This document shows positions 4,722 through 58,902 of a stretch of DNA of 64,000 nt, piece after piece. A program made the translations under genes and the position numbers. The stretch is from Casimicrobium huifangae (GTDB taxonomy: Bacteria > Pseudomonadota > Gammaproteobacteria > Burkholderiales > Casimicrobiaceae). The stretch covers positions 2,898,436 through 2,962,435 of the forward strand of contig NZ_CP041352.1 of the NCBI RefSeq assembly GCF_009746125.1, written 5' to 3'. The notes beneath the pieces are model-generated. The model was not told the origin of the DNA. It searched no databases and saw only the letters and a program-made list of their open reading frames with translations. How positions within the stretch are numbered: the first letter of the stretch is position 1; each line of letters starts with the position of its first letter.

Positions 4722-4836
4722 CAGCTTTTGCCTGAAAGCCCCATTCGATTAGGGCTATCGGTGTATTTCGCGGCCATGTCGACTTCTGTGGAAATCGGCC
4801 CGTACCCCGCGATCAATGGTGCTTGGACGAAAAAGT
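4722..4836 (+). repeat. Dispersed palindromic element, copy A
   Basis: About 115 bp between the Mrr-like gene and the secreted protein gene. It begins CAGCTTTT, carries a stem-loop built on AAGCCCC...AGGGCT (4736-4756), the core ATGTCGACTT (4776-4785), and ends ACGAAAAAG. The 21-base arm at 4736-4756 matches copy F (53345-53365, reverse strand) at 20 of 21 positions. Confidence 0.75.
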
Positions 4837-4960
4837 CATAACGTCCGCATAGGGCTCGCGAGCCTTTTTCGCTGTCGTTAACCCCGTTTGCCACGCCGGC
4901 TCGTTTCAGTCACTAACCGCCTCATTTCCGGGGCGTGCAGGCAAGCTGAAGGAGCCCGCC

Positions 4961-5857
4961 ATGTTGCACAAAGCCTTGTTTACCGCCGTTCTTGCTGCCA
5001 CCGCTGCGGTATCGATGAACGCCAGCGCCATCGGCCGTCTGGCCGACGTGACCGTCGTTGACCGCAGCACCGGGCAAACGCTGCCGGTGCATTACTATCG
5101 CGGCGAATACTGGGTGGCCGGCACGCCCGGCGCCAAATACTCGGTGTCGGTGGCCAACGCCTCCGGCGGTCGCGTACTGGCAGTGATGTCGGTCGATGGC
5201 GTCAATGTGCTCAACGGCCAGACTGCCAGCACCGAGCAGTCGGGCTACGTGTTCAACGGCTACCAGCGCTACGAAGTGACCGGCTGGCGCAAGAGTAACG
5301 CCGAGGTCGCAGCGTTCGAATTCGTTGCCTCCCCAGCGTCCTACGCCGAGCGCACCGGGCGCCCGGCGAATGTCGGCGTGATCGGTGTCGCCCTTTTCAA
5401 GGAACGCGTCTACCAGCCGCCGGTTCAAGTCACGCCGCAGATGTCGCCACCATGGTGGCCACAAGGGGGTCGCAAATCGGACATGGAAACCGGCGCGGCT
5501 GGCCGTGCTGCCGACTCCGCGTCAAATACTGCGCAGCCGGCACCGGCTGCCCCCGCCGCCAGCGCTCCACCCGCCGAGATGGCGAAACGCGCCGAGCCGC
5601 GCTACGACGGTCGCGCCGAGGCAGCACGCGAAAAGCTCGGTACCGGCCACGGTGAACGTGAGTGGTCGCAGGTCACTCACACCTCGTTCGAGCGCGCGCA
5701 ATCATCGCCGAACGAAACCATACGCATCCGCTACGACAGCTACGAGAATCTGGTGTCGATGGGGGTGATCCAGTCGCCCCGCCCGTGGCAGCGCACACCG
5801 AACCCGTTCCCGGACAACCTCGGCTACGTGCCGGATCCGCCGCGTCACTGGCGCTAG
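4961..5857 (+). CDS. Secreted protein of unknown function
   Basis: A 298-residue protein with a signal peptide (residues 1-24, cleaved near NASA-IG). An N-terminal beta-rich region (25-140) contains the blocks VTVVDRSTGQTLPVHYYRGEYWVAG and FNGYQRYEVTGWRKS, and appears to end in a conserved 'GVIGVALFKE' segment. A low-complexity Ala/Pro linker follows, then a charged C-terminal part rich in Arg and Asp. GAAGGAGC precedes the ATG. It lies 70 bases upstream of the ECF sigma gene on the same strand, so it may share transcription with it or be a target of it. I do not recognise the family and assign no function. Confidence 0.75.
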   Translation: MLHKALFTAVLAATAAVSMNASAIGRLADVTVVDRSTGQTLPVHYYRGEYWVAGTPGAKYSVSVANASGGRVLAVMSVDGVNVLNGQTASTEQSGYVFNGYQRYEVTGWRKSNAEVAAFEFVASPASYAERTGRPANVGVIGVALFKERVYQPPVQVTPQMSPPWWPQGGRKSDMETGAAGRAADSASNTAQPAPAAPAASAPPAEMAKRAEPRYDGRAEAAREKLGTGHGEREWSQVTHTSFERAQSSPNETIRIRYDSYENLVSMGVIQSPRPWQRTPNPFPDNLGYVPDPPRHWR

Positions 5858-5927
5858 GCAGAACGGATCGCCGGAGCGGTCAGCGCCGGGCGACAAAGAG
5901 GGCGGCCATGCATGGATAATCCCGTGC

Positions 5928-6518
5928 ATGGCCGCGCCACCTTCCAACGAGACTGATGAAGCCCTGATGCTGGCGTTTGCGCGAGGCAATATGAACGCGT
6001 TCGAACAGCTCTATGACCGTCACGAAACCGGCGTCTGGCGCTTCGTTTTCCGCAGCGTGCAGAATCAGGCTGTGGCCGACGATCTGGTTCAGGAGCTCTG
6101 GTTCGCTGTCGCCCGTACGGCGGCGAGCTATGAACCCACTGCCAAGTTCAAGACCTGGCTGTTCACGATGGCGCGCAACCGCGTGATTGACCACGCCCGC
6201 ACCGCGAAAAACCACACCAGTATCGACGCCGAGAACGACGATGGCGAATCGATGTTCTCCGACCTTGCCGCCGATTCCCGCCTCGGCCCGCTGCGGCAGG
6301 TGACGTCGCGCGAGCAGGCAAAAGCGCTGCTCGCCGCCATTGAACAACTGCCGCCCGACCAGCGCGAAGCTTTCCTGCTGCAGGCCGAAGGCGACATGAG
6401 CGTGGATGACATTGCAGCCGCCACCGGTGTCTCGTTCGAAACAGCAAAGAGCCGCCTGCGCTACGCGCGCAACAAGCTGAAGGAACTGCTCGCCGATTTC
6501 GCGGAGGTGCGCGCATGA
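5928..6518 (+). CDS. ECF-type RNA polymerase sigma factor
   Basis: The 196-residue protein has a region 2 (about 12-85: NAFEQLYDRHETGVWRF, VADDLVQELWFAV, FKTWLFTMARNRVIDHAR) and a region 4 (about 125-180: LPPDQREAFLLQAEGDMSVDDIAAATGVSFETAKSRLRYARNKLKELL). It lacks regions 1 and 3, so it belongs to the extracytoplasmic-function group. Its stop overlaps the start of the next gene (ATGA at 6515-6518), the usual layout for a sigma factor and its membrane antagonist. The promoter sequence it recognises cannot be deduced here. Confidence 0.93.
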   Translation: MAAPPSNETDEALMLAFARGNMNAFEQLYDRHETGVWRFVFRSVQNQAVADDLVQELWFAVARTAASYEPTAKFKTWLFTMARNRVIDHARTAKNHTSIDAENDDGESMFSDLAADSRLGPLRQVTSREQAKALLAAIEQLPPDQREAFLLQAEGDMSVDDIAAATGVSFETAKSRLRYARNKLKELLADFAEVRA

Positions 6519-57868: not shown

Positions 57869-57881
57869 CTTGCCGCCAACG

Positions 57882-57916
57882 AAAAAGGCCGCGCGAAAAT
57901 CGCAGCGGCCTTTTTT
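57882..57916. terminator. Bidirectional Rho-independent terminator
   Basis: AAAAAGGCCGC and GCGGCCTTTTTT pair around a 12-base loop between the convergent lysR (stop 57868) and adk (stop 57935) genes; T tracts exist on both strands. Confidence 0.85.
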
Positions 57917-57934
57917 GATGAGGTGCGGTAACGG

Positions 57935-58588
57935 CTACTTCAGCGCTGCCAGCACCGCCGCCGTAATGGCATTGACGTCGCCGACGCCATTGATCTGTAC
58001 GTACTTCGGTGCGCCCGCTTTGCCAGTCTTCGCCCAGTCGGCGTAGTAGCCCAGCAACACTTCAGTCTGGTCGTGATAGACCTTGAGGCGGGTCTTGACC
58101 GTGGCCTCTTCGTCATCCTTGCGCTGGATGAGGTCCTCGCCGGTGACGTCGTCCTTGCCTTCGACCTTGGGCGGATTGAACTGCACATGATAGGTGCGGC
58201 CCGAGGCCAGATGCACGCGGCGACCGCTCATGCGCGAAACGATCACTTCGTCCGGCACCGCGATTTCGAGGGCGTAATCGATGGCAACGCCGGCGTCCTT
58301 CATGGCCTCGGCCTGCGGAATGGTGCGCGGAAAACCGTCAAACAGGTAGCCGTTCTTGCAATCGGGCTCCTTCAGACGCTCCTTGACGAGACCGATGATG
58401 ATGTCGTCACTGACCAGTGCGCCGGAATCCATCACCTTCTTGGCGGCAAGGCCCAGCGGCGTGCCCGCCTTGACGGCGGCGCGCAGCATGTCACCGGTAG
58501 AAATTTGCGGGATGCCGAACTTCTCGCAGATGAACTTCGCCTGCGTGCCTTTGCCCGCCCCCGGGGCCCCCAGAAGAATGAGTCGCAT
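57935..58588 (-). CDS. adk: Adenylate kinase
   Basis: Catalyses ATP + AMP to 2 ADP in the cytoplasm. The 217-residue long-form enzyme shows [18 protein letters not shown] (P-loop), the AMP-binding region [18 protein letters not shown], the signature [14 protein letters not shown], and the long LID ([27 protein letters not shown]) without the four zinc cysteines. The ATG at 58588 gives [14 protein letters not shown], the standard start. The frame extends upstream, but that part is not homologous. Confidence 0.97.
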
Positions 58589-58902
58589 GTCTTGGATTCG
58601 TGGTGGATGAATAGCGCTTTGTCTGATTATGACCCGTCGCTTCTTGCGCAGGCCTGACGGTCGCCTCCAAACGGTGCGTCGGGGCATCTGTGGCGTATCA
58701 GCTTTTTATGGAAACGTCCATTTCATCGGGCCAGAATACATAAATCACTGAATGTCGACTTTTGGCAGATTCGTCCTCAAAGCCGCCATCAAATGGGGCG
58801 TTCAACGAAAAGCTGAGTGGCCGCGATGAACAGTCTGTGCGCCGCAACGATGCGCCCGAGGGACGACGCTGCCCAAGGCTGCGCCTTCACACCATGCCGG
58901 AC
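58589..58902. other. Intergenic region between adk and aroC
   Basis: These 314 bases are mostly dispersed element copy G (58699-58815). The part next to adk must carry the adk promoter and leader; I see no convincing boxes. No gene is visible. Confidence 0.55.
58699..58815 (+). repeat. Dispersed palindromic element, copy G (best preserved)
   Basis: A 117-bp copy with clear ends CAGCTTTTT (58699) and AACGAAAAGCTG (58804-58815). Left stem CCATTTCATCGGGCC, core TGAATGTCGACTTTTGGC (58749-58766) and right stem AAAGCCGCCATCAAATGGGGC are all intact. The core is the exact reverse complement of copy F's, and the last 12 bases equal those of copy B. Confidence 0.85.

Follow-up and report, generated by a model that had tools for sequence, protein, structure and literature searches.

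A dispersed 120-bp intergenic element of Casimicrobium huifangae that looks more like a protein docking site than a jumping element or a hairpin

The window analysed here, i.e. a whole stretch of 64,000 nucleotides (G000:C1:2898436-2962435) from the single-contig, 4.47-Mb genome of Casimicrobium huifangae (G000), contains seven copies of an intergenic element of about 120 bp with two-fold symmetry. Palindromes between bacterial genes are commonly regarded as debris that is mobile or forms hairpins; the tests reported here point the opposite way, and the element looks more like a protein docking site than a jumping element or a hairpin. Its copies would be dispersed sites for a putative two-fold symmetric protein complex that organises the chromosome, a reading to which we give a probability of roughly 0.47. 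According to this model, about 380 sites would be kept by the cell for a sequence-specific complex with two-fold symmetry, presumably a dimer or multimer. Each half-site of about 62 bp would comprise an outer CAGCTTTT block, GAAA, CCATT, GGGCT, an A/T box and the central TCGA; two half-sites sharing TCGA would form a 120-bp platform, and single half-sites occur too. Since the sites are intergenic, show little regard for gene direction and follow an even pitch of about 11 kb in this genome, their likely task would be the organisation or topological partitioning of the chromosome. If a protein does read them, they would provide a ready set of anchor points for testing the division of bacterial chromosomes into domains of about 10 kb.

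Noc, SlmA and MatP are chromosome-associated proteins that read dispersed palindromic sites of about 12-16 bp. By analogy, the element may be a comparable set of dispersed palindromes with a putative reader. Unlike the Noc, SlmA and MatP sites, it is 120 bp long with 62-bp halves and is present all round the chromosome in our sample.

Family, copy number and placement

The initial annotation had described the seven regions as copies of one palindromic family, which proved correct: all 7 match a 124-position profile (R1). This profile and its strand-symmetric alignment were made from 28 copies, namely 23 found by a core sequence (including two window copies) and the remaining five window copies. 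Hereafter, G-numbers designate the genomes compared, L-numbers individual DNA stretches, and feature coordinates are window positions. The core, the 13-mer AAAAGTCGACTTT, has 31 matches (16 on the forward and 15 on the reverse strand) at 24 distinct places of the genome, the excess of matches over places arising because its reverse complement is almost the same sequence; the same 13-mer written backwards, used as a control, has 0 matches. On both strands of the window, R1 finds exactly 7 sites at E<=1. They score 50-70 bits, with E-values from 1.2e-14 to 6.5e-21 for copies that had themselves helped to build the profile.

The census sample combines the window with 60 stretches of 20 kb taken from all round the chromosome; it covers 1.264 Mb (28%) and contains 111 sites. 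Among the 109 that reach E<1e-3, 94 are longer than 100 bp and, by our own count, about 91 lie outside the 28 training copies. The 60 stretches carry on average 1.70 elements per 20 kb, i.e. about 380 genome-wide. The density of about one per 9 kb first proposed holds within the window, and the sample gives about one per 11-12 kb. With 19 further stretches, the sample was extended to 1.60 Mb (36% of the genome) and the tally reached 138 sites, 128 full and 10 partial, a full site being an R1 match that runs from position <=30 to position >=91.

The intergenic placement seen in the window also extends beyond it: in a contiguous region of 541 kb, 46 of the 47 element centres lie between genes called with a simple, custom-made codon-usage caller. 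Thirty of these centres lie between tandem, nine between divergent and seven between convergent genes, which is near what intergenic regions of >=120 bp offer (114:59:22 tandem:divergent:convergent). Furthermore, the elements have a GC content of 46%, versus 59% in the remainder of their intergenic regions and 63% in genes. The family had not been recognised as a named one, and searches of the open-licence literature yielded no description of it.

Symmetry without conserved pairing

Read inwards from its outer end, the half consensus is TCAGCTTTT, GAAA, a C-rich CCATT, GGGCT, an A/T box and AAAAGTC|GAC. GGGCT occupies positions -29 to -25, with GGGC at 92-99%, and the A/T box positions -15 to -12; the two halves share the central TCGA. 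The consensus outer end is TCAGCTTTTT, without any GTAG-type tag, and terminal inverted repeats (CAGCTTTTT/AAAAAGCTG) are present. These ends and the core GTCGAC, picked out in the initial annotation, do mark a real dispersed intergenic palindromic family. Its statement that copies lie in both orientations is meaningless, given the two-fold symmetry of the consensus. In 128/128 full copies, the weaker arm reaches a score of 5.3 or more, and none of 264 background TCGA centres exceeds -11.3. These 128 copies were chosen with a symmetrised profile; the unsymmetrised alignment of the 28 copies gives the same symmetry.

Base pairing is not the conserved property of the element. The arms are mutually reverse-complementary in the consensus, as first described, and not copy by copy: in the 128 copies, opposite arms within a copy match at 0.5005, versus 0.4881 for arms of different copies (permutation), so that nothing is added beyond the consensus bar an excess of about one point. 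A unit acting as one long hairpin or cruciform is rejected on the basis of this permutation and by the comparison of arms in the 28 copies. The two small stem-loops that had also been proposed fare no better in this genome, since covariation is missing: the AGCCC/GGGCT stem is paired at 0.465 versus 0.468 after permutation (256 arms), GGGC being nearly invariant and its partner bases varying without compensation. As arms and stems show no useful covariation, the element is likely to be read as DNA rather than as RNA or as a cruciform.

A transcribed RNA element, such as a bidirectional terminator or an mRNA-stabilising hairpin, is very improbable. The median distance of the elements is indeed shorter to gene 3' ends (42 bp) than to gene starts (118 bp), the consensus includes AGCCC...GGGCT, and copy 6 folds better than 198/200 shuffles. 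However, besides the lack of useful covariation in the long hairpin and in the small stems, the RNA folds are inconsistent among copies: the seven window copies are barely better than shuffled sequence (z from -0.20 to -2.84) and each forms a different structure. Moreover, convergent genes are not clearly enriched around the elements (7/46 vs 22/195) and the window has no match in Rfam at gathering thresholds.

Half-elements, spacing and conservation

Besides the symmetric copies, the genome carries discrete half-sites. In seven of the ten partial sites, one arm is at full strength (40-58) and the other side at background level (-29 to -69); for comparison, the 264 background TCGA centres have a median score of -48 and the weakest second arm among full elements scores 5. 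The profile match ends within three positions of the dyad in five of these half-elements and continues 11 and 20 positions beyond it in L180 and L140, respectively. TCGA is kept in 7/7. The three other partial sites are a worn copy (L167) and two pieces of a split copy in L190, separated by about 0.9 kb that includes an open reading frame (ORF) the size of a gene. The half-element of L175 is also a half in G011 and a full element in G001 and G015; that of L232 is also a half in G011; that of L164 recurs as a half in G015 and is lacking in G013; and that of L181 is a full element in G011, G001 and G015. Three of the four compared halves are therefore halves in another species too, which suggests that the half persists as a unit and is not a recent remnant.

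Disruption of the core by an inserted mobile element was considered and rejected as the origin of the halves. Apart from L190, no complementary half was seen in the sampled stretches, the search at L175 reaching only about 1.1 kb beyond the half. At L181:3030-3900 of G000, a gene-bearing insertion of about 0.6 kb lies beside the half-element, at a place where three of the compared relatives have a full element. Stretches L314 and L323 of G013 contain another inverted-repeat element, whose ends are CTAGTGCAGTGTTTCGC; it occupies two of the three places where half-elements of G000 were compared with G013. In L314, only its end is visible because the contig stops there.

The elements are evenly spaced in this genome. 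In the contiguous 541 kb, the 47 sites have a mean spacing of 11.16 kb, with a coefficient of variation (CV) of 0.48 and a minimum of 3.16 kb. Placing 47 sites randomly among the 195 intergenic regions gives a CV of 0.94 and 9.6 intervals shorter than 3 kb (none observed), and 0/20,000 such placements are as even as the observed one. Furthermore, in the 53 separate 20-kb stretches outside this region, the variance/mean ratio is 0.46 (p 0.0003 against uniform placement), with 5 neighbours closer than 3 kb versus 19 expected under uniform placement; at least three of these five involve half-elements or the split L190 copy.

Strong sites for DNA gyrase (or topoisomerase IV), with a 4-base staggered cleavage at TCGA, wrapped arms of about 58 bp and topological domains of about 11 kb, are an improbable explanation, ranking second among the rivals after an old mobile family (see below). 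The geometry does match, with a 4-bp TCGA centre, arms of about 58 bp and a symmetric 120-bp profile; in addition, half-sites retain the whole TCGA and spacing is even. The GyrA of this genome, an 867-aa open frame, looks ordinary, with the six C-terminal repeats that are usual for this protein. The in vivo gyrase motif of E. coli is described as symmetric and about 130 bp long, with cleavage at a 4-bp centre and wrapping of the arms on either side, reflected in a 10.75-bp GC periodicity; BIME-2 is suggested to contribute to genome organisation (PMC6379681). The element shares with BIME-2 and the E. coli motif a symmetric site of about 130 bp with a 4-bp centre. Unlike the degenerate gyrase motif, however, it has strong base-specific blocks such as GGGCT, even spacing and no dominant 10.75-bp periodicity. 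In the whole profile, GC power is 0.05 at 10.5 bp versus 1.27 at 9.5 bp, and in the arm alone a secondary component lies near 10.25 bp (0.37-0.40 at 10-10.5 bp versus 0.78 at 7.5 bp), both spectra being taken without a null.

The places of the elements are mostly conserved in one relative. Contig C4 of G011 is syntenic over 111 kb, with 84% coding nucleotide identity over 60 genes. In a comparison of orthologous intergenic regions such as the initial annotation had called for, eight of the nine elements of this region, including six of the seven window copies, keep their place in G011. The consensus columns are under some constraint: over the 8 orthologous pairs, identity is 253/345 (73%) in high-information, 109/205 (53%) in middle and 120/271 (44%) in low-information columns. 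It reaches 654/1087 (60%) in the non-coding flank of 7 orthologous pairs and 7854/13294 (59%) at fourfold sites. In random paralogues, the corresponding column identities are 76%, 43% and 30%. This pattern suggests sites near equilibrium, under weak selection and at fixed places.

At E<=1e-5, R1 matches 12 of 40 genomes, all 12 belonging to a betaproteobacterial genus of 17 genomes. A second profile (R2), made from the source species and G006, was used for the cross-genome search, in which filters were stricter and no genome had more than 55 candidates scored, hence weak matches may be lost; it matches 16 of the 17 genus genomes and 0/47 genomes of six sister genera. In G006, a profile built from this genome's own copies detects 48 sites. 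They share the plan of the element, but their consensus has shifted: GCCCAATTtaAATTGGGC appears in the arms, and the central TCGA is not framed as GTCGAC. Such a shift, common to many separate sites, would be expected if the specificity of a trans-acting reader drifted. It is possible, although we propose it only tentatively, that the sites form a genus-specific class of architecture elements, with 120-bp sites, 62-bp halves, a pitch of about 11 kb in this lineage and a putative reader of drifting specificity, with which all the sites of one species would change consensus together. If a protein reads them, this would be a case of a code of several hundred sites drifting in step within one genus.

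Several observations weigh against sites read by a chromosome-organising complex. No binding protein was found. Arm identity within a copy slightly exceeds permutation, the one-point excess mentioned above having a p of 0.009, and the small stem of G006 shows a weak pairing excess (0.652 vs 0.633 over 50 arms), reached by 14/300 permutations. Spacing in G006 is uneven: the 48 sites, found in 400 kb, have a CV of 1.09, and their gaps range between 765 bp and 55 kb. Evenness thus characterises the source genome, not the family, and is rejected as a genus-wide rule. Copy 6, the ninth element of the syntenic region, is missing at its place in G011, G012 and G013. High-information columns are no more alike in orthologues (73%) than in random paralogues (76%), hence per-column selection is weak, and low-information columns fall below flank identity (44% vs 60%), for which a simple binding-site model gives no reason. 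Finally, G016 (2.6 Mb) has no detected element, G008 (2.5 Mb) has few (13 at E<=1 with R1, 7 with R2), and R2 matches, counted on both strands, number only 6-8 in G003, G007 and G012. Therefore, the function would be dispensable in these genomes or the sites would differ there.

Mobile elements and the setting of the window copies

The main rival is an ancient family resembling miniature inverted-repeat transposable elements (MITEs) or REPINs, which a transposase since lost would have spread long ago in the genus ancestor and which would now be slowly decaying. The halves would then be remnants, and the spacing would result from insertion immunity or patterned loss. We consider this history unlikely, although the elements resemble miniature ones in size, symmetric ends, copy number, intergenic location and restriction to the genus, and three relatives lack the copy 6 that G000 has. 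The closest pair among the 128 full copies is only 70.2% identical (mean 54%), hence no young copies are seen in the sampled 36% of the genome. Furthermore, the halves are strongly bimodal instead of decaying gradually, and the consensus columns are kept when other columns are not. Neither a target-site duplication (looked for by eye beside the seven window copies) nor a clean empty site, even at the copy 6 locus in relatives, was seen, neither having been searched for systematically.

Genes of the PF01797 type, i.e. encoding transposases related to those associated with repetitive extragenic palindromic (REP) sequences (RAYTs), are found in 15 of the 17 genus genomes and were not found in G008 and G016, which have few or no elements. 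This distribution would suit a RAYT link, but it would also suit the small size of the G008 and G016 genomes. Four PF01797 genes are present in the source genome, and the two that were checked are REP-associated tyrosine transposases (NF047646). These two genes (L183:8818-9339 and L167:3621-4157 of G000) have their own GTAG-type REPs, GTAGCCTCGATGCA and GTAGGGCGGGACGC, in their flanks; the genome thus has a genuine REP/RAYT system in addition to the element family. No element lies within 3.0 kb of one RAYT gene, nor within 3.6 kb before or 7.2 kb after the other. Mobilisation of the element by RAYTs is weakened by these distinct REPs at the two genes checked. Hence, the filing of the element as MITE- or REP-like in the initial annotation is unsupported as stated: near-identical copies are lacking among the 128 full copies of the sampled 36%, places are mostly conserved in one relative, spacing is even in this genome and the two RAYTs checked have different, GTAG-type REPs.

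ERIC sequences are of similar length, intergenic and palindromic, a likeness drawn from their description only. In the cited excerpt, ERIC or 127-bp intergenic repeat units are presented as MITE-like small mobile sequences of enterobacteria (PMC2759123). REPINs and REPs with their RAYTs are described, in the excerpts cited, as inverted pairs of units in intergenic DNA, in hundreds per genome and with single units too; spacers are less conserved, the pair forms a hairpin, REP doublets are reported to be randomly distributed and singlets to be less conserved (PMC3116915, PMC3733652). Within the limits of these excerpts, the element resembles REPINs in its intergenic inverted pairs, its hundreds of copies per genome and its single units. 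Unlike in REPINs, the whole 120 bp carries consensus and the arms do not pair beyond it; unlike in REPs, spacing is even and most half-elements are at full strength.

In the window, features are given without strand. Copy 1 (4721..4838) is a full-length symmetric element scoring 55.7 bits with R1, with an orthologous copy in G011 at C4:101229; a gene encoding an Mrr-type restriction endonuclease domain (PF04471; 3927-4709) directly adjoins it. Copies 2 (14946..15064; 51.2 bits) and 3 (20596..20715; 70.1 bits) are also full length, with orthologous copies in G011 at C4:91002 (weaker, 28 bits) and C4:85825, respectively. Copy 3 is flanked by ORFs that face each other and overlaps the end of the left one by about 15 bp. 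Copy 4 (36069..36187; 50.4 bits; G011 C4:71429), full length as well, starts 8 bp earlier than the 36077 first annotated and lies between divergent ORFs encoding a TonB-dependent receptor and an S9 peptidase. Copy 5 (43667..43786; G011 C4:63855) has a diverged left outer end, R1 giving 58.6 bits over 43675-43786 (model 3-115).

Copy 6 (53260..53380; 65.1 bits) begins directly after the stop codon of a thioredoxin/TPR gene. At its place, G011 has an insert of about 12.9 kb (C4:41141-54019) with several long ORFs, within which R1 finds no element. Copy 7 (58697..58816; 69.2 bits), between aroC and adk, has orthologous copies in G011, L062 and G013; the closest relatives of this aroC come from metagenome-assembled genomes of Betaproteobacteria/Burkholderiales. 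Its dyad core GTCGAC (58754..58759) exemplifies the centre of the family, the central TCGA being the inner end of half-elements elsewhere.

A search of plasmids with one copy and its flanks gave no match. In a viral collection, 12 contigs contain the half-site pattern; only one of them (L352) gives an R1 match, of 28.9 bits and inside phage genes (L352:7640-7740). This score is about the contribution of the pattern itself and is probably due to chance given the size of the collection; carriage by phages or plasmids was rejected. Moreover, the 14-mer CCGTTCGTGGTGAG, with 21 occurrences on both strands of the 1.6 Mb sampled in G000, represents another dispersed repeat of this genome.

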